DNA of 44,518 nucleotides from an uncultured Intestinimonas sp. (GTDB lineage Bacteria > Bacillota > Clostridia > Oscillospirales > Oscillospiraceae), in NCBI RefSeq assembly GCF_944387725.1, contig NZ_CALXGA010000010.1, positions 1 through 44,518 on the forward strand, in the 5' to 3' direction. The number at the start of each line of letters is the position of its first letter. The stretch's first letter is position 1. Positions 6,426-44,518 of this stretch are shown piece by piece. The translations under genes and the position numbers were made by a program. The notes under the pieces were generated by a model. The model did no database searches. It had not been told where the DNA came from and worked only from the letters and a program-made list of their open reading frames with translations.

Positions 6426-8938
6426 GGGTTGGATTCTCCTTTTCTATTTGTGTCACACCCTCCTTGGACGGCGGCCGCCGGGATTTGTTCCCCCGGCGCA
6501 GAAATAATTTTGATCTGGCTCCCGTCGGCCAGGATCACGGCGGTGCCGCCGGGCTCCAGGGCGCCGCAGAGCAGGAGCTCCGCCAGGGGGTCCTCCACCT
6601 GGGCCCGGATGGTCCGGCGCAGGGGCCGGGCGCCGTAGGCCGGGTCAAAGCCCGCCTCGGCCAGCAGATCCAGGGCCTTTTCACTGACCTGGAGGGCCAC
6701 CTCCCGGGCCTCCAACCGGGGACGGAGCCGGTCCAGGAGCCGCTGGGCCACCCGCCGCAGCTCCGGCCGGGTGAGCTGCCGGAAAACGATGGTCTCGTCG
6801 ATGCGGTTGAGGAACTCGGGCCGGAAGACCTTTTTCAGGTCCTCCAGCACCCCCTCCCGCGCCGCCCCGGCGGAGTGGGTCTCCCCAGTCTCCTGAGAGA
6901 CGAAGCCCAGAGGGGCGCTCCGGCTGGTGAGCCGGGCGGCCCCCACATTGGAGGTCATCACCACCACGGTGTTCCGAAAGTCCGTCTTGTGCCCCTGGGC
7001 GTCGGTGAGGACGCCGTCCTCCATAATCTGGAGGAGGATGCCCCACACATCGGGGTGGGCTTTCTCGATTTCGTCAAAGAGGACCACAGAATAGGGCCGG
7101 CGGCGGACCCGCTCGGTGAGCTGTCCCCCCTCCTCGTGGCCCACATACCCCGGCGGGGAGCCCAGGAGCCGGGAGACGGTGTGCTTTTCCATATACTCGG
7201 ACATGTCGAAGCGCAGCAGGGCCTCCTCGGTGCCGAAGAGGGCTGCGGCCAGGGCCTTGCACAGTTCCGTCTTGCCCACCCCGGTGGGGCCCAGGAAGAG
7301 GAAGGAGCCGATGGGACGGTCTGGCTCCTTGAGTCCTACCCGCCCCCGGCGGACGGCCTTGGCCACCGCCTTCACGGCGTCGTCCTGTCCCACCACCCGG
7401 CGGTGGAGCTCTGCCTCCAGGGCCAGCAGCCGCTCCGACTCCGCCCGAGTGAGGGCGGTCACTGGGATGCCGGTGGCGTCGGCCACCACTGCGGCCACAT
7501 CCTCCGCCTCCACGCTCTGGGGGGCCTGGTCCAGCCGCCAGGCACGGCGCTGGGCGGTGAGCTCGCTGCGAAAGTCCCGCTCCGCGTCCCGGAGCATGGC
7601 CGCCCGCTCGAAGTTTTGACCCCGGATGGCGGCCTCCTTTTCTAGGGCGGCCTGCCGGGCCTTGTGCTCCAGGCTTTGGAGCGCGGGGGGCGTCTCCAGC
7701 TCTCCCAGGCGGACTCGGGCGGCGGCCTCGTCGATGAGGTCCACCGCCTTGTCGGGCAGGAAGCGGTCGGGCAGATACCGGGCGGAGAGCCGCACCGCTG
7801 CCTCCAGGGCCCCGTCGGTGATGCGCAGGTGGTGATGGTCCTCGTACCGCTCCCGCAGGCCCCGGAGAATCTCCAGGGCGGCGGCGGGGGCGGGCTCCTT
7901 CACCAGCACAGGCTGGAAGCGGCGCTCCAGGGCGGCGTCCTTTTCAATATACTTCCGGTACTCGGCCAGTGTGGTGGCCCCCACCACCTGGAGATCTCCC
8001 CGGCTCAGGGCAGGCTTGAGGATGTTGGCCGCGTCAATAGCCCCCTCGGCGCTCCCCGCCCCCACGATGGTGTGGAGCTCGTCCAGAAAGAGGATCACAT
8101 CCCCGGCGCGCCGGACCTCAGCCAGGAGGGCCTTCACCCGCTCCTCGAACTCCCCCCGGTACTTGGTCCCCGCCACCATGGAGGACAGGTCCAGAGCCAG
8201 CAGGCGCTTGCCCCGCAGGTCCTCGGGCGCCTGTCCGGCGGCGATGCGCCGGGCCAGGCCCTCGGCGATGGCGGTTTTACCCACGCCGGGCTCTCCGATG
8301 AGGGCCGGGTTGTTCTTCTGCCGCCGGGAGAGGATCTGAATCACCCGGCGGAGCTCCTCCTCCCGGCCCACCACCGGGTCCAGGAGGCCGGCGGCGGCCT
8401 GCCGGGTCAAGTCTTTTGCGAATTGTTCCAACACCTTTGCATCTCCCCGTTCTGTATAGGGCTGCTTTGGCGCCCTGCCGGTCCGGGCGGGGCCCGGCGG
8501 AGCGCCCCCCATGGCCCCCAAGAGGGCGGCCCGGAGATGGGCGGGGTCCACCCCCGCGCCGGCCAGGACCTGGAGGCCGGCCCCCTCGCCGGCCCCCAGG
8601 AGGCCCAGCAGCAGGTGCTCGGTGCCGATGTGCCGGGCCCCCAGCCGGCCCCCCTCGCCGGCGGCCAGCTCCACCGCCCGGCGGCAGCGGGGGGTCAGGC
8701 CCTGACAGGGCCGCCGGCCGGCGGACCCCGTCCCCACCTGGCGGACCACTGCGGTCCGAAGGCACTCCGAGTCCGCCCCGGCGTTTCGCAGCACCCGGCA
8801 GGCCGCTCCCTGGCCCTCCCGGGCCAGGCCCAGCAGCAGATGCTCGGTTCCCACATAGCTGTGGCCCAGCTCCGCCGCGGCGGTATGGGCCAGCTTCAGG
8901 GCCGACTGGGCCCCTGGGGTGAATCGGACTTCCTGGAT
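6422..8938 (-). CDS. clpC: ClpC-type AAA+ unfoldase; start codon unclear
   Basis: About 838 aa from the homologous N-terminus. ClpC unfolds proteins for ClpP and in Firmicutes takes part in protein quality control. Two Clp N repeats at the N-terminus (both with GTEHLLLGL) are followed by AAA+ domain 1 ([24 protein letters not shown]), a UVR-like middle coiled coil, AAA+ domain 2 ([23 protein letters not shown]) and the ClpB D2-small C-domain. The family-like reading starts around [19 protein letters not shown], but no ATG, GTG or TTG exists there: a good ribosome site (GAGGTGAG) is followed five bases later by ATC at 8938. The first conventional start is GTG at 8854, inside the first Clp N repeat. 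Either a rare ATC start, a mutated start or a base error is possible. Confidence 0.9.
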
Positions 8939-38968: not shown

Positions 38969-39070
38969 TCCTGTATCACCTCTTGGCAGGGGGGCAGCGG
39001 ACCGCCCCTGCGGCATAGAAAAAGGGGCCCGGTACCCGCCGCGCCCCTTTGTGTGTTCCCGCGCCTGTGT

Positions 39071-39369
39071 TCCGGCGCGAAGCAAGACCGCACACCGGCC
39101 TTTGAAGCCTGCGCTATGCCCGTAACCCCGGCAGCCAGCTCAAGAACGGCCGCCCCGCGGCACACGGGAGGGTCCGCTTAATGCTGCTCGGTTCCCCGCC
39201 TGACATGGTTCACGGGTTCCCGTTGCGCGGGACCGGTCTATCATCGCCGCTTACCAGGGGCAGACGGCACAGCGCAGGTCCGGGGGCCGGAATTCATCCC
39301 TGCTGCAGCGGGTTGCAGGTACAGGGCACCGCTAACTCCCCGACTAGTGCGGTCCTGCTTCGCGCCGGA
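39071..39369 (-). ncRNA. ffs: Signal recognition particle RNA, large Gram-positive type
   Basis: About 299 nt. The ends pair over 21 bases (TCCGGCGCGAAGCAGGACCGC with GCGGTCTTGCTTCGCGCCGGA). The Alu domain has GGGGAGTTAGCGGTGCCCTG and TACCTGCAACCCGCTGCAG. The conserved S-domain helix 8 reads GTCAGGCGGGGAACCGAGCAGC. It lies just upstream of dnaX on the same strand, a common Firmicute arrangement. Confidence 0.9.
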
Positions 39370-39401
39370 CCCTCAGGGCCCGGCGCGAGCCGGTATAGAT
39401 T

Positions 39402-39430
39402 ATTGTACTACATTCTGCGGAATTTATCAA
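39402..39430 (-). promoter_or_regulatory. Promoter of SRP RNA
   Basis: TTGATA-N17-TACAAT on the minus strand, about 30 bp before the RNA's 5' stem. Confidence 0.75.
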
Positions 39431-39478
39431 TCCCGGATTTTTGCCGGACGTGTCAAGATGTTGCAGGGGGTATTATGT

Positions 39479-39661
39479 TTATTGCGCACCACTTTTCTGC
39501 CCTCCAGTGACAGCTCGTTGCATCATGCCGGCTGCCATAATGTAATGAGTGGAACACTCCGTACCGCCATATCGACGAGACTTGTCGCAGCAGAAATGTC
39601 CCTGAGATTTACGTCCCTTTCTTGCCGAAAAGACCATCCTTGTGTTGTAGCCCCCGCAGAT
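39479..39661 (-). pseudogene. Serine recombinase zinc-ribbon remnant
   Basis: A short frame reading LICGGYNTRMVFSARKG, FCCDKSRRYGGTECSTHYI. This resembles the recombinase zinc beta-ribbon of large serine recombinases (pattern LxCxxCGxxM ... C ... C..HYI), with one expected Cys now Tyr. Both ends of the gene are missing; the left end of repeat copy D starts exactly where the fragment begins. A remnant of a mobile element, by motif only. Confidence 0.5.
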
Positions 39662-39826
39662 TAGGGCTTGTTTGAAAAATGTCAACATGCCCAATCAGCG
39701 GGTCTTTTGTCCCCTGGACGGCGCAATTTTTCCTTGAAATCCGCCAGGATTCCTGCGAAAAAATTGTTTGCCAGCGGCCAAAATCCCTCGCTGCTGGACA
39801 CGTTGCTATTTTTCAAACAAGCCCTA
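39662..39826 (+). repeat. MITE-like repeat, full copy D
   Basis: 165 bp with TA ends and perfect-looking 18-bp terminal repeats (AGGGCTTGTTTGAAAAAT / ATTTTTCAAACAAGCCCT). Slightly diverged from B and C in the right half. Sits between two different mobile-element remnants. Confidence 0.9.
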
Positions 39827-39828
39827 GA

Positions 39829-39954
39829 TCGTGTCTACAGACATTGCGAAAAAATTGTTTTGGTCATGGATCATTTAAATATCCGCTCCACCGCTCCGCT
39901 GTAGAAAGCCTTTGAGCCTGATATAGCCAGGCGGATTGCACAGCGTTTGGAAAT
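39829..39954 (+). pseudogene. IS630-family transposase remnant
   Basis: In frame from 39829: HCEKIVLVMDHLNIRSTAPL, a stop, then KAFEPDIARRIAQRLEIH. This matches the second catalytic Asp region of IS630 DDE transposases (KIVLVMDNLNTH...AFxPxEARRIxxRLEIHYTPKHGSWLN). A nonsense codon and loss of both ends make it dead. It directly abuts repeat copy D. Confidence 0.7.
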
Positions 39955-39961
39955 TCACGGT

Positions 39962-40195
39962 AGGGAACGCCGGCCTTGACCGCCGCCTGACGGGCCACGT
40001 TCTGGTCCAGGCCGGCGGTGAGCACGCCGCCGAAGATGACCTCGTCCACCTGCTCAGGGGCCGCGCTGGCCCGATAGAGCGCCTCCTTGACTACGGCGGC
40101 GCACATCTCCACGGCGGAGGCGTCCTTTAGGCCCCCGCCAAAGGAGCCGCTTCGGTGCGGCAGCAGTTGACGATGTAGATGTCTTTCATATCCAT
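39962..40195 (-). pseudogene. Acetyl-CoA acetyltransferase (thiolase), N-terminal remnant
   Basis: Start MDMKDIYIVNCCRT, then after a one-base frameshift (near 40155) GSFGGGLKDASAVEMCAAVVKEAL, VDEVIFGGVLTAGLDQNVARQAAVKAG. This is the thiolase N-terminus, stopping well before the catalytic Cys; downstream it is replaced by IS630 sequence. Confidence 0.75.
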
Positions 40196-40221
40196 ACCCC
40201 AATCCTTTTGTTTCAATTTGG

Positions 40222-40260
40222 AAAGCTGTGCCCCGCCTCTTCCGGAGGGGCACAGCTTGT
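40222..40260 (-). terminator. Terminator after the acyl-CoA dehydrogenase remnant
   Basis: AAGCTGTGCCCC / GGGGCACAGCTT 12-bp stem, 20 bp downstream of the stop. Confidence 0.7.
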
Positions 40261-40279
40261 AGAAGATATGCCGCGCGGG

Positions 40280-40580
40280 TTACTTCACGCCCATCCAGCC
40301 GGATATGACCATCCGCTGGACCTCGGAGGCACCCTCATAGATCTCGGTGATCTTGGCATCGCGCATGAAGCGCTCGAAGGGATACTCACAGGTGTGGCCG
40401 TAGCCGCCGGGGAGCATCCACCTTGGCCTGCATGTCGGCCAGCTGGAACTGGGTGTTCTGGAACTGGCTGATGCGCTTGCCGAACTGCACGCGCTCCTCG
40501 GTGTACTTTACGCACTCGTCGATGGCCGCCTGAGCAATGCCCATGGCCTGAGCGCCGATGCCAATCCGGCCGCCGTCCAG
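40280..40580 (-). pseudogene. Acyl-CoA dehydrogenase remnant with internal deletion
   Basis: Starts in the middle of the protein at LDGGRIGIGAQAMGIAQAAIDE, continues to [11 protein letters not shown], then jumps (with a frame change) to [33 protein letters not shown] and a proper stop. About 60 codons between these motifs are missing, including the helix before the GGYG segment. The 5' half is replaced by repeat copy E. With the thiolase remnant it suggests that a butyryl-CoA-type gene cluster once lay here. Confidence 0.8.
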
Positions 40581-40632
40581 GGGGCAAAAGCCCCGCCGGT
40601 TGGGCATGTTGACATGTTTCAAACAAGACCTA
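40571..40632 (-). repeat. MITE-like repeat, partial copy E (left part, inverted)
   Basis: On the minus strand: CTAGGTCTTGTTTGAAAC, then ATGTCAACATGCCCAACCGG, ending in CCCCCTGGACGGCG, where it passes in frame into the acyl-CoA dehydrogenase remnant. Same internal end point as copy A. Confidence 0.85.
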
Positions 40633-40659
40633 GTATCATTCCATACTAAAGGACAAGAA

Positions 40660-40690
40660 AGCGGCCAGCCGCAGAGACGGCTAGCCGCAT
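40660..40690 (-). terminator. Terminator downstream of the flagellin gene
   Basis: GCGGCTAGCCG / CGGCTGGCCGC stem followed by TTTCTTGTCCTTT on the minus strand, 230 bp after the flagellin stop. Confidence 0.7.
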
Positions 40691-40727
40691 AGCGCTTAAA
40701 TCTGTTGCTGTTTTGTTTTTGCCGCTT

Positions 40728-40753
40728 ACTGGAGCAGCTGGAGGACGCCCTTC
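40728..40753 (-). repeat. Second copy of the flagellin gene's last 26 bases
   Basis: Matches 40920-40945 base for base (codes ..GVLQLLQ-stop on the minus strand). The 165 bp between the copies hold a GC-rich hairpin (40825-40850, CCCCGCGCGGC / GCCGCGCGGGG) and no gene. Confidence 0.8.
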
Positions 40754-40920
40754 GTCGTCGCGGACTTCGGATCACGCGCTTCGCCGCAAGCGGCAAAGCG
40801 CATTCCCTCCGTCGCTCCTCCTCTCCCCGCGCGGCTTACGCCGCGCGGGGGCCCCTGCCCCAGGGCGGGGCGGACAAGAAACATTTATGAGACGTTGAGC
40901 GTACGGAAGCGGATTTCCGC

Positions 40921-42405
40921 TTACTGGAGCAGCTGGAGGACGCCCTGGGGCACCTGATTGGCCTGGGCCAGCATGGCCTGGGCGGACTGGACCAGGATGT
41001 TGTTCTTGACATAGGACATCATCTCTTCGGCCACGTCGGTGTCCCGGATGGTGGACTCGGCGTCCTGGATGTTCTCCTCCATGACGGAGAGGTTGTTGAT
41101 GGTGTGGTCCAGCCGGTTCTGGGTAGCGCCCAGAGTACCCCGGACGTCGGACACATAGTTGATGGCGTTCTTGATGGTGTCCAGAGCGGAGGCGGCCCCG
41201 TCCTGAGTGGCGATGCTCAGATCCCCGATGCCGATGGCGGCGGCGTCGGTGGCTTTAATGGAGACCTTCAGCTGGTTCCACTCGTCGCTGGTGTCGCCAA
41301 TCTGGAGGACCAGGGCGGCGCCGTCAGATTCTGCCACAAAGTCCAGGTTACCAGCACCATCCTCCGACACGGTGACGCCAACGCTCTCCAGAGCCTTATT
41401 GATATTGTCGATGGTCTCCGCGTCGGTGGCGCCGATCAGGACGGCGGTGGCGCCCTCCGTGGTGGGATCATCCAGCGCGTCGGCCACCAGCTCATAGGTC
41501 GTGCCGTTCAGCGTGAAGCTATCGCCCGCAGCCAAGTCCTGGCCAGTAGCGCCGGCGGTTATGCCGGCTTGGACCTGCTTATAGGCGTCGGCGCCGTCCA
41601 CAAAGGCGGGGGCGCCGGCGGTCACGGTGGCATCGCTGGTAGACATATTGGTCACCTTGGCGCCCTGAGCCCCGGCCTCCTTGGCGGTGAAGACAACCTG
41701 TGTGCCGGTGCCGGTGGTGATGTCGAACACAGCGGACAAGTCGCTGTTCTGCGCCAGCGCGTCCACCAGCGCGGTTGCATTCGTATTGGCGGTGGCAGTG
41801 GCCGTAAAATCCACCGTAACAGTTTTCAATGTGCCGTCGGCAGCGGTGAACTCCACAGTCGCGGTCTGCGCACCCGCAGTACCAGCAGCGACGGTCATGG
41901 TGCTGGCGGCCTTTGTAGCGGCCACGTCGGTCACGGTGGTCACAGCGTTCAGGTTCACAGAGGTGATATTCACCTCCGGATCCGCCAGGGATCCGTCCAG
42001 GAGCTTGATGCCGTTGAAGTTGGCGGACTCGGAGATGCGGTCGATCTCGGTCTTGAGCTCGGTGACCTCCTTCTGGAGCTGCTCCCGGTCGATGCCGTCG
42101 TAGGTGCCGTTGGCGGACTGCTCGGCCAGCGAGTACATGCGGTTGAGCATGTCGTGGACTTCCTGCAGGGCGCCCTCGGCGGTCTGCACCAGGCTGATGC
42201 CGTCCTTGGCATTGTCCTGGGCCTTGCCCAGGCCGGTGATCTGGGCCCGCATCTTCTCGGAGATGGCCAGGCCGGCGGCGTCGTCCCCCGCCCGGTTGAT
42301 CTTGTAGCCGGAGGACAGCTTCTCCAGGTTGCCGGACAGGGCGTTGGTGTTGTTGGTGTAGTTGCGGTAGGCGTTCATCGCCATGATGTTATGCTGGATC
42401 CTCAT
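40921..42405 (-). CDS. Flagellin
   Basis: 494 aa filament protein. Conserved N-terminal D0/D1 domain ([39 protein letters not shown], to about 150) and C-terminal D1/D0 ([20 protein letters not shown] to [14 protein letters not shown], last 90 residues), separated by a Thr/Ala-rich variable region of about 245 residues that forms the exposed surface. ATG follows GGAAGCGCACGAA. No convincing sigma-28 promoter was found in the 388 bp before it; the nearest one is in the invertible segment upstream of the TnpB-like gene on the same strand, so expression may depend on that switch. It could be one of several flagellins in the genome. Confidence 0.95.
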
Positions 42406-42585
42406 TTCGTGCGCTTCCTTTCTTTGAAATGATTTTGGGGCTTTGCGCGTCGCCGCGCCGTAATCCTCTGGCGCGGGGTCTTGCTTCGGCGGTCCGGCGC
42501 AGCCTCCGTGGCCTTTGGCGGTCTGAGCCCTCCCGCGCACTTCTCTATTTCAACCGGCTCGCGAGGCCGGGTGAAACCATTGGAA

Positions 42586-42793
42586 TGGTCATCGTCATAA
42601 TATTTGGAACGCCCCTCCGGGCTTCGGACGCGGCCCCAGGGGGGAGGCGTCCTCTCGTTTCCCAACGGTCCCCCGCCGGTTTGGGTGCGCTGAGCGAAGC
42701 CGCGGTCCCTTGTCCGCCCCTTCGCTCAACGCGCCCCCACCGGGGGCATGGGCCTGCACCGGCGTTCCCACCGGCAATTTTTTCCTGCGTTTT
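42586..42793 (-). ncRNA. Candidate guide RNA (omega-RNA-like) of the TldR-like protein
   Basis: Directly after the tldR-like stop, the minus strand holds an ordered set of hairpins: GCCCCC/GGGGGC (42733-42747), a 13-bp stem GCGTTGAGCGAAG / CTTCGCTCAGCGC (42687-42732), CCCAA/TTGGG (42661-42685) and GGACGC/GCGTCC (42626-42652). The tail GAAGCCCGGAGGGGCGTTCC (42606-42625) looks like the 3' end of IS200/IS605 TnpB RNA scaffolds, and GGAGG there can pair with CCTCC inside the previous hairpin (pseudoknot). If the scaffold ends near 42606, the guide would be about 42605-42586. No match to that stretch exists elsewhere in the window. Position and guide border are inferred. Confidence 0.55.
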
Positions 42794-43978
42794 TTAAGAA
42801 ACAGCCTCCTGGACCTGTCCGGCCTGATACTGGACCAGCCCCTTGGCCTTGATGTTGACGGCGGCGTTGACGCCCCGCCTGTGCTCCGCCCCGCACACAG
42901 GGCAGATCCACCGCTGTGCCTTGGGCGGGATGCTCTCAGTCACCGCACCGCAGGCGGAGCAGACCTTGGTGGTGGGGACAAAACGGTCCACCTCCAAAAG
43001 CTGCTTGCCCTGCCGCTCCAGCTTATAGCGGAGCATCTCCCGGAACATCCCGAAGCCGGAATGGAGGACCTCGCCGCCACCCAACGCCCCGGAGATCGCC
43101 CGCAGAGAGTCGCCCCGGATACATACGGCGTCCCAGGCGTTGGCTATCCGCCGGGACTCCTTGTGGAGGAAGTCGCGCCGCTGGTTGGCGATGCGCTCAT
43201 GGAGCAGGCGATATGTTTGGACTTGCTCTTGATAATTCCTGGAACCTGGCTGTAAGCGGCTGAGCTTCTGCTGGATGGCGGCCAGCTTCTCCTGGGACTG
43301 TTTCAGCCACCGGGGCGGGTCGGCGGCGGCTCCGCCATCCGTCACATAAAAGTGCGTGACGGAGTATTTCAGACCGATGGTCCGCTCCGCTGTGGGCTCC
43401 ACCGGCTCCGGCTTATGCACCGGGCAGGCGAAGAGCAGACAGCCGTAATACCTGCCCGTCTTGGTCCGCTCCACCGTGATCCGGGTGAGCCTCCAGCCGC
43501 TTCGGGGGCGGCGGGGGAACTTGGCCCGGACCAGGCCGGCCTTGGTCATACGGACGGCGTTTTGGGTGATGTAGATGGTGGCGCTTTCCCCCATCACATG
43601 GTTGCAGGCGGTGAAGCGGTCCCGTCCGTCCTTTTTGCGCTTGAACCTGGGATAGCCGAACGCCGCCGGATTGCGGAAAAAATTCCGAAACGCCTGGGAG
43701 AGCTTGTTGTGCTCCTGAATCAGCGCCTGATTGTCCACCTCTCTCAAAAAGGGGACTTCCTTCTTGTATTTGGCCGGAGTGGGGATGAAGTGTTTGTCCG
43801 TGGCGTAGTAGAACTCCTCGTGATCCGCAAGCATCCGGTTCCAGATGTACCGGCAGCAGCCGAAGGTCTTTTGAAAAAGTGCCTCCTGCTCCGGCGTGGG
43901 ATAGAGGGGGACCTTGATGGTGTTGTATTGGATGCTGGATTTTGACTGCTTCCCATCCGCTCCCCGTTTGCTTCCCAT
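42794..43978 (-). CDS. Nuclease-dead TnpB homologue (TldR-like RNA-guided repressor)
   Basis: 394 aa, full TnpB length. N-terminal REC/wedge part (IKVPLYPTPEQEALFQKTFG, CRYIWNRML), RuvC I region IGLKYSVTHFYV, coiled coil, RuvC II region VCIRGDSLRAIS, zinc ribbon (CSAC 340-343, CPVC 359-362) and RuvC III HRRGVNAAVNI. Related active TnpBs have IGLDYS, VCVEDLNMKAMS and HRDVNAA-like motifs; here the three catalytic acids are Lys204, Arg288 and Gly369. The frame is intact and the fold motifs are kept, so loss of cutting looks selected rather than decay. No tnpA or transposon ends were seen. ATG at 43978 follows GGGAGGTGACAGCA. It lies upstream of flagellin and downstream of an invertible promoter. 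Alternative: a degenerate transposon relic. Confidence 0.88.
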   Translation of the reverse strand: MGSKRGADGKQSKSSIQYNTIKVPLYPTPEQEALFQKTFGCCRYIWNRMLADHEEFYYATDKHFIPTPAKYKKEVPFLREVDNQALIQEHNKLSQAFRNFFRNPAAFGYPRFKRKKDGRDRFTACNHVMGESATIYITQNAVRMTKAGLVRAKFPRRPRSGWRLTRITVERTKTGRYYGCLLFACPVHKPEPVEPTAERTIGLKYSVTHFYVTDGGAAADPPRWLKQSQEKLAAIQQKLSRLQPGSRNYQEQVQTYRLLHERIANQRRDFLHKESRRIANAWDAVCIRGDSLRAISGALGGGEVLHSGFGMFREMLRYKLERQGKQLLEVDRFVPTTKVCSACGAVTESIPPKAQRWICPVCGAEHRRGVNAAVNIKAKGLVQYQAGQVQEAVS

Positions 43979-43997
43979 TGCTGTCACCTCCCGCCAG

Positions 43998-44027
43998 CTG
44001 TTCCAAAAAGTGTACTTTTTGGAACAG
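43998..44027 (+). repeat. Left inversion site (hix-like), 14-2-14 palindrome
   Basis: Arms CTGTTCCAAAAAGT and ACTTTTTGGAACAG, perfect inverted repeats, around a 2-bp core GT (44012-44013). The format (about 12-bp arms, 2-bp asymmetric core, A/T-runs) is that of serine-invertase crossover sites. It lies 19 bp upstream of the tldR ATG. Confidence 0.75.
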
Positions 44028-44127
44028 AAAAAATTTTTTCAAAAACGGCTTAACTTTGCCCCAAAACAGCCGATAAAGCTAATGAAACGGAAGTGAAAAA
44101 AGCGGTTGTGCAGCTGTTCTAAAAAGT
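44014..44127. promoter_or_regulatory. Putative invertible promoter segment (OFF orientation)
   Basis: 114 bp between the cores of two sites whose asymmetric cores are in inverted orientation (GT left, AC right). It contains a sigma-28-type promoter that now points right, away from the tldR-like gene and flagellin. Inversion would place the promoter at about 44065-44091 on the minus strand, reading into tldR about 80 nt later. No recombinase gene is in the window. Confidence 0.65.
44050..44076 (+). promoter_or_regulatory. Sigma-28 (SigD/FliA) flagellar promoter
   Basis: TTAA-N15-GCCGATAA: the -10 box is an 8/8 match to the flagellar sigma consensus and the spacing is the canonical 15. No gene lies downstream on the plus strand in this window, only terminators. 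Confidence 0.75.
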
Positions 44128-44143
44128 ACACTTTTTGGAATGG
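44114..44143 (+). repeat. Right inversion site (hix-like)
   Basis: Arms GTTCTAAAAAGT and ACTTTTTGGAAT around core AC (44128-44129). Its reverse complement shares an unbroken 20-bp block, TTCCAAAAAGTGTACTTTTT, with the left site. The flanking CAGCTG also recurs at the left site. Confidence 0.72.
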
Positions 44144-44172
44144 CCTTTTTATTTAAAAAGACGAAACATTAT

Positions 44173-44242
44173 CTTGCGGAATTTGCAAAATTTCCGCAAA
44201 AAAGCGCGAATTTCCGTATAAAAACGGAGATTCGCGCTTTTT
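44173..44242. terminator. Two hairpins, bidirectional terminator
   Basis: TTGCGGAA...TTCCGCAA (44173-44199), then a long stem GCGCGAATTTCCGT / ACGGAGATTCGCGC (44204-44237) flanked by A6 and T5. It would stop transcription from the sigma-28 promoter in its present orientation. Confidence 0.8.
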
Positions 44243-44321
44243 GACGGGGCGCCGGCGGAAGGGAACCGGCGGGGGCTGGGCAAGCCCTCACCAAAAGGGC
44301 AGGAAAAGACGCAAATAAGCA

Positions 44322-44370
44322 AAAAAATACACCGGACTTAGCCATACCGACTAAATCCGGTGTACTTTTT
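44322..44370. terminator. Bidirectional terminator
   Basis: ACACCGGACTTAG / CTAAATCCGGTGT hairpin (one mismatch) flanked by A7 and T5. The stretch 44243-44321 shows no gene. Confidence 0.75.
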
Positions 44371-44440
44371 CATGTTCCAATCCCGCCAGACAGCCGCCGA
44401 GCGTTGTTTCATTCAAGTCACTGTCTTATGGGCACGCGGC

Positions 44441-44518
44441 CAGGGCTTGTTTGAAAATTGGCGATGTGTCCGGCAGCGAGGGATTTTGGGCCGCTGGCAA
44501 GCAATTTTTTCGCAGGAA
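44441..44518 (-). repeat. MITE-like repeat copy F (cut by window end, inverted)
   Basis: Starts CAGGGCTTGTTTGAAAATTG (TA end changed to CA) and follows the right half of copies B-D in reverse complement to the last base of the window. Confidence 0.85.

Follow-up and report, generated by a model that had tools for sequence, protein, structure and literature searches.

Organization of the tldR-flagellin locus

The DNA analysed here, a 44,518-nt stretch from an uncultured Intestinimonas sp. (NZ_CALXGA010000010.1; hereafter the window), is one entire contig (C10) of a 2.18-Mb genome assembly that comprises 116 contigs and is 85% complete. It carries a minus-strand unit in which an inverted-repeat segment (44001-44140) is followed by tldR, encoding a nuclease-dead homologue of TnpB, then by the scaffold of a guide RNA (gRNA), the putative guide AATATTATGACGATGACC and a flagellin gene (Table 1). 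The contig runs 0.4 kb past the invertible segment (inverton), which provides 0.5 kb of sequence upstream of tldR. The initial annotation had likened this locus to the Hin-fljBA phase switch of Salmonella; all the parts it named, including a σ28 promoter within the inverton, are present and in place, and the genome also encodes a Hin-type recombinase.

The window TldR is homologous to TnpB, with the Pfam domains Cas12f1-like_TNB, OrfB_IS605 and HTH_OrfB_IS605, has lost the RuvC catalytic residues, and is encoded directly upstream of a structured guide RNA, as expected of a TldR. Its RuvC residues Asp, Glu and Asp are changed to Lys, Arg and Gly, respectively. Among 18 TldR-type loci, the first Asp and the Glu are replaced throughout and the third Asp in 15 (it is kept in L015, L039 and L041), whereas the contrast locus L044 retains all three. 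Relatives include a TldR of 79% identity in an Intestinimonas sp. record and one of 64% identity at a Flavonifractor plautii locus. By analogy with related TldRs, the window protein is predicted to bind DNA under RNA guidance and to act as a repressor. The original description of TldR reportedly appeared in Nature in 2024. Searches of 50,697 phage records and of viral contigs gave only distant TnpB-type relatives, at best 38% and 30% identical, respectively.

The inverton arms are complementary at 26 of 27 positions with 86 nt between them, and each arm by itself forms a near-perfect dyad around an asymmetric centre, as expected for serine-invertase sites. The enclosed σ28 promoter is the top σ28-like match in the 44.5-kb window, scoring 18.0 against 14.5 for the next best (our own scoring, as for all σ28 scores below), and faces away from tldR (OFF). 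Terminator-like sites lie in this OFF direction at 44113-44144 (the right arm plus a T-run, for plus-strand transcripts) and 44344-44363; both strands of 42300-44518 hold eight such sites, compared to 4.1 expected from shuffles. A further stem-loop beyond the inverton might also terminate OFF transcripts. No promoter of the flagellin's own was found: the minus strand of 42400-44000 has no σ28-like match above 12.5, and 42300-44518 has no σ70-like site. The earlier proposal that the invertible promoter drives tldR, gRNA and flagellin as one unit thus agrees with the gene order and with the lack of another promoter between them, although the promoter points the other way in the assembly.

The order hin, inverted repeat, tldR, gRNA and flagellin was found again in other genomes and is conserved across several genera. 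A script search detected upstream inverted repeats in 12 of the 18 TldR loci. The promoter faces away from tldR in seven loci (six in which this direction scores clearly higher, and L012, which is identical to the window as far as the contig extends) and towards tldR in five (L017, L022, L036, L041 and L042); orientation was left uncalled in six, with near ties or no promoter in the sequence. Both orientations therefore occur among relatives, whereas the assembly of the window genome has only OFF. A Hin-type match lies upstream in 10 of the 18 loci, and three of the other eight (the window, L012 and L038) are cut within 0.6 kb. In the window genome, a 203-residue Hin-type serine recombinase is encoded directly upstream of a flagellin gene on contig C2, with further serine recombinase relatives on C36 (Hin-type), C50 and, more weakly, C61. 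If the window inverton is flipped, the C2 Hin would probably be the one to do so, in trans.

Besides the window unit, the genome has two further flagellins, which bears out the expectation of a second one. One belongs to a second unit on C33, cut by the contig end, with a TldR 88% identical to that of the window, the same guide, an OFF inverton and an identical left recombination site. The other, on C2, has its own σ28-like promoter (score 17.0).

Table 1. Features of the tldR-flagellin unit in the window
Feature	Coordinates	Strand	Remarks
Unit's flagellin	40921..42405	-	494 aa, ATG at 42405; Flagellin_N and Flagellin_C
Linked flagellin codons 6-7, AAC ATC	42385..42390	-	synonymous to AAT ATT; proposed self-escape
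Flagellin-leader hairpin GGTTTCACCCGGCC...GGTTGAAATA	42546..42578	-	similar hairpin before C2 flagellin (L013, about 7098-7129, -)
Putative guide AATATTATGACGATGACC	42587..42604	-	proposed seed AATATT, first six nt (42604-42599)
gRNA scaffold (omega-RNA-like), long hairpin	42605..42774	-	covariation, fold
tldR, nuclease-dead TnpB homologue	42794..43987	-	397 aa, GTG start
Left recombination site of inverton	43998..44027 (arm proper 44001-44027)		30-nt near-perfect dyad, asymmetric centre
σ28 (FliA-type) promoter TTAACTTT-N11-GCCGATAA	44050..44076	+	between arms, faces away from tldR (OFF)
Right recombination site of inverton	44114..44143 (arm proper 44114-44140)		inverted-repeat match to left arm
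Stem-loop beyond inverton, T-rich 3' arm	44194..44247		from inverted-repeat listing; not among terminator-scan sites

Guide-target match and the pattern at flagellin codons 6-7

The gRNA scaffold is under selection for structure. Two-sided changes occur in 25 of 32 consensus pairs over 17 loci, a value that none of 500 shuffles reached; 94.8% of the alignment cells are paired, and the covariation exceeds all six slid controls. In addition, none of 200 shuffles folds as well as the window scaffold (z -3.5). An Rfam scan of 39000-44518 (E up to 0.5) yielded nothing for the guide RNA, returning only a signal recognition particle (SRP) RNA and one sub-threshold mir-553 match.

With the guide start inferred from the sequence, the gRNA end AATATTATGACGATGA agrees with the C2 flagellin over codons 6-11 in 15 of 16 nt (L013 6956-6941, -), compared to 13 of 16 in the linked flagellin, where positions 3, 6 and 10 mismatch. 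The same genome thus holds, by sequence match, both a second flagellin and a candidate repressor target within it. The initial annotation had proposed RNA-guided silencing of another flagellin; a plausible target exists, but it is the start of the coding sequence rather than the promoter. TGGTTTCACCCGGCC also matches the C2 leader exactly over 15 nt, but this match was set aside because it belongs to the leader hairpin, which precedes both linked and unlinked flagellins.

Comparison across 12 TldR genomes revealed that 16 of 17 flagellins without a TldR have AATATT, the proposed seed, at codons 6-7, as against none of 17 TldR-linked ones (Fisher 1.5e-8), counting only flagellins that match CARCAYAAYATHATGGCNATG; six of the 17 unlinked flagellins (G305-G308) were examined only after the pattern had been seen. 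The sole unlinked exception is L056 (AATATC), and AATATT is found in 13 of 13 unlinked flagellins for which 1.4 kb or more of upstream sequence is available (Fisher 8.4e-9). In this count L111 is left out of both classes (it is labelled linked on the tree below), G122 contributes linked rows only, L069, an odd flagellin that is shortened internally, sits on a very long tree branch, and L045, with an internal tldR deletion, is taken as unlinked. The linked flagellins depart from AATATT by synonymous codons. Genomes without a detected TldR are intermediate, with AATATT in 12 of 28 flagellins (p 0.0013 versus linked, 0.0005 versus unlinked).

The L045 locus (positions 1-700; G284, contig C134) is a decayed sister in which the gRNA scaffold, csrA and the flagellin are kept; its gRNA remnant possibly supplies a guide in trans.

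The discriminating letters are guide positions 3 and 6: across 20 pairings with unlinked flagellins of the same genome they match in 90% and 95%, compared to 18% and 6% across the 17 pairings with own flagellins. Wherever gRNA and flagellin of a linked locus were both readable (19 loci), at least one of the six seed letters distinguishes the guide from its own flagellin. An order-level search added one new genome, G342 (L124), whose gRNA reads AACATT and whose own flagellin reads AACATC. Both new loci of G577 come from the genome already counted as G306: one locus sequence was checked as the same, and for the other, contig number and kind agree.

We propose that the synonymous codons 6-7 form an identity tag readable by RNA: the guides of the clade would carry the seed AATATT, rival flagellins would keep AAT ATT, and the linked flagellin, or its guide, would be selected to mismatch. 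Such a tag, which we consider likely from the sequence comparisons, would discriminate self from non-self without any protein change and would be layered on the DNA-inversion switch.

Proposed switch and alternative explanations

Altogether, we regard the locus as quite probably a flagellar phase switch of the Hin/fljBA kind, in which the repressor would find the rival gene by RNA and spare its own through synonymous codons. A Hin-type serine recombinase would flip the 140-bp segment holding the σ28 promoter. In the OFF state the promoter would read away from the unit towards the terminator-like sites, and the cell would make the C2 flagellin. In the ON state a single transcript started from it would span tldR, the gRNA and the linked flagellin. 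The TldR-guide complex would then bind the beginning of the coding sequence of the C2 flagellin, where the seed AATATT corresponds to codons Asn6-Ile7 and the guide would pair with the template strand, and would block its transcription, with one filament taking the place of the other. The linked flagellin would be spared because it encodes these two amino acids by other codons, AAC ATC. Inversion in this strain, the identity of the Hin, operon transcription, DNA binding and repression are all proposed by analogy with the related TldRs tested by Walker et al. 2026 (PMC13418256).

Several observations weigh against this proposal and are given here together with the alternatives. In L111 (G306), the linked flagellin itself has AATATT and the gRNA has AATATA, so it is the guide that departs and not the flagellin. 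The gRNA of the intact TldR in G284 reads AACATT; as one of these six letters mismatches its own flagellin and likewise the other flagellins, it does not discriminate by count. G122 has three TldR units, and a motif search found no unlinked flagellin in it. Moreover, four of the unlinked rows have less than 0.7 kb of upstream sequence (L045, 661 nt; L056, 393 nt; L062, 375 nt; L069, 60 nt), and a tldR might therefore lie beyond the contig end. In addition, the assembly of this genome has no match to the ON orientation, and no hin adjoins the unit in the 0.4 kb that remain of the contig.

The first alternative retains the same switch and takes AATATT as constant scaffold, the true guide being the bases 3' of it (GATGACCATTCC...) and the target being absent from the assembly, which is incomplete at 85%. 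In alignment A2, 16 of the 17 gRNAs have AATATT, and these letters vary less than the adjacent ones. Position 10 of the putative guide is mismatched in 20 of 20 guide-target pairs, mostly A against G, and the matching fades beyond about position 15, for which reasons AATATT might be partly scaffold. Nevertheless, the seed does vary, as AATATA in L111 and as AACATT in L037 and L124 (both outside A2), and the bases 3' of it have no convincing match in the four scanned loci of this genome (L012, L013, L014 and the window). If AATATT were scaffold, the codon pattern would need another cause, and the position of codons 6-7 as the strongest separators of linked from unlinked flagellins among codons 2-45 would be left unexplained. 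We therefore think this alternative unlikely.

Could the difference at codons 6-7 instead reflect general codon usage or the descent of the linked flagellins, and not guide avoidance? Linked-unlinked pairs differ at codons 2, 9 and 11 as well, in 65-75% of cases. However, codons 6 and 7 differ most, each in 18 of 20 such pairs against 2 of 13 and 5 of 13 same-class pairs, whereas codons 2 and 9 also differ in many same-class pairs (8 of 13 and 7 of 13). Descent fits poorly with the flagellin tree, built with the first 11 codons left out: linked and unlinked flagellins are interleaved, often nearest to each other within one genome, and linkage changes 15 times, of which well supported branches require at least eight. 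Among independent pairs on such branches, the codon state follows linkage in six and the reverse in none, with two ties (p 0.031). These data make codon usage or descent a quite unlikely explanation.

A third alternative accepts the anatomy and holds that flipping of the inverton has ceased in this lineage, hin not being adjacent, with the unit left as an OFF relic. It draws on the OFF state of both units and the lack of a hin in the 0.4 kb between the inverton and the contig end. Against it stand the nearly perfect arms, the identical left sites of the two units, the intact tldR, scaffold and flagellin, the Hin-type genes on C2 and C36, and a genome of the same genus (G250) in which hin lies directly upstream of a closely similar recombination site. 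A relic is thus very unlikely in our view. Finally, an ordinary TnpB insertion beside a flagellin, with no regulatory role, would account for the TnpB Pfam domains but is scarcely credible given the RuvC residues lost throughout the compared clade, the order conserved over several genera and the guide RNA under structure selection.

Relation to known flagellar switches and neighbouring features

In Salmonella, Hin inverts a promoter that expresses the fljB flagellin together with fljA, a repressor of the other flagellin, and hin lies inside the invertible segment. The window unit resembles this system in its apparently invertible σ28 promoter, its predicted co-expression of a switched flagellin with a repressor of another and its association with a Hin-type serine recombinase. 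It differs in that the repressor is a predicted RNA-guided TldR instead of FljA, and in that the invertible segment holds no gene, the 86 nt between the arms being too short for one.

The initial annotation had considered the pairing of an inverton with TldR undescribed. This no longer holds, because Walker et al. 2026 (PMC13418256), in main-text passages that also name the Salmonella Hin-fljB/fljA phase variation, report hin upstream of most csrA-TldR loci, FliA-promoter inversions in F. plautii and csrA-linked TldRs that target sites within fliC open reading frames (ORFs), in addition to an RNase III-cut gRNA in Oscillibacter. The window unit shares with the csrA-TldR-fliC loci described there a dead TnpB, a long-hairpin gRNA, a flagellin, an inverted promoter segment upstream, and a chromosomal setting in gut Oscillospiraceae; the related unit of G250 also has the upstream hin. 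The Enterobacter prophage fliC-TldR (FRphi) of the same passages likewise has a TldR and gRNA beside a flagellin, represses the host flagellin and uses a 6-nt seed, guides of 6 nt being sufficient; unlike the window unit, it targets the fliC promoter and is carried by a prophage.

In contrast to the published csrA-TldR-fliC loci (PMC13418256), the window unit has no detected csrA. None was found in the window unit, the available part of the C33 sister or the G250 unit; a CsrA profile built from 13 relatives detected none in the window, L012, L013, L014, L015 and L033, and PF02599 gave no match in the 85% complete genome at E ≤ 1. The window therefore lacks the csrA within 3 kb that characterizes the csrA-associated clade, as far as the 0.5 kb available upstream of tldR extends. 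The Pfam CsrA model recognizes the CsrA-like proteins of two scanned relatives. By its sequence, the window unit is a csrA-free, intact member of the published switch type.

The csrA gene itself varies in place and company. In L016 and L124 a csrA-like gene stands directly upstream of tldR rather than between gRNA and flagellin, and L060 (G086, contig C61), with hin, inverted repeat, csrA and flagellin but no tldR, and a promoter facing away by eye, is the same switch with CsrA only. CsrA-site-like motifs in the flagellin leaders were tried as a discriminator and did not separate linked from unlinked flagellins.

Several other features lie beside the unit. The flagellin 3' end (40917-40946) recurs as a short copy at 40722-40751, which suggests past recombination between flagellin genes. 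A 165-bp palindromic repeat resembling a miniature inverted-repeat transposable element occupies 39662-39826, with related stretches at 40571-40632 and 44442-44518, the contig end falling within the latter; in the genome, at least 44 copies are nearly full-length and 90-100% identical, with 40 of 207 first-look candidates scored. Between the repeats, at 39864-40626, are broken fragments which, from an ORF reading, we take to resemble the start of a thiolase and part of an acyl-CoA dehydrogenase. The SRP RNA, of the bacterial large type (Rfam RF01854, 203 bits), lies at 39088-39352 on the minus strand.

Full-text literature searches for TldR with flagellin, TnpB or hin invertase returned Walker et al. 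2026 alone, and wider searches gave no other paper on the system among the matches listed. Neither a target at flagellin codons 6-11 nor self-escape by synonymous codons is mentioned in the main-text passages of that paper (PMC13418256), its figures and supplement being outside this scope. As far as we could see, the codon rule for target choice and self-escape is therefore new, and it is well supported by the sequence comparisons. If the proposal holds, one surface protein of a gut commensal would be under two stacked switches, the first a heritable inversion of DNA and the second an RNA-guided repressor, and the codon pattern would offer a simple, testable rule for telling the rival gene from the linked one, by which targets may be predicted from sequence alone.

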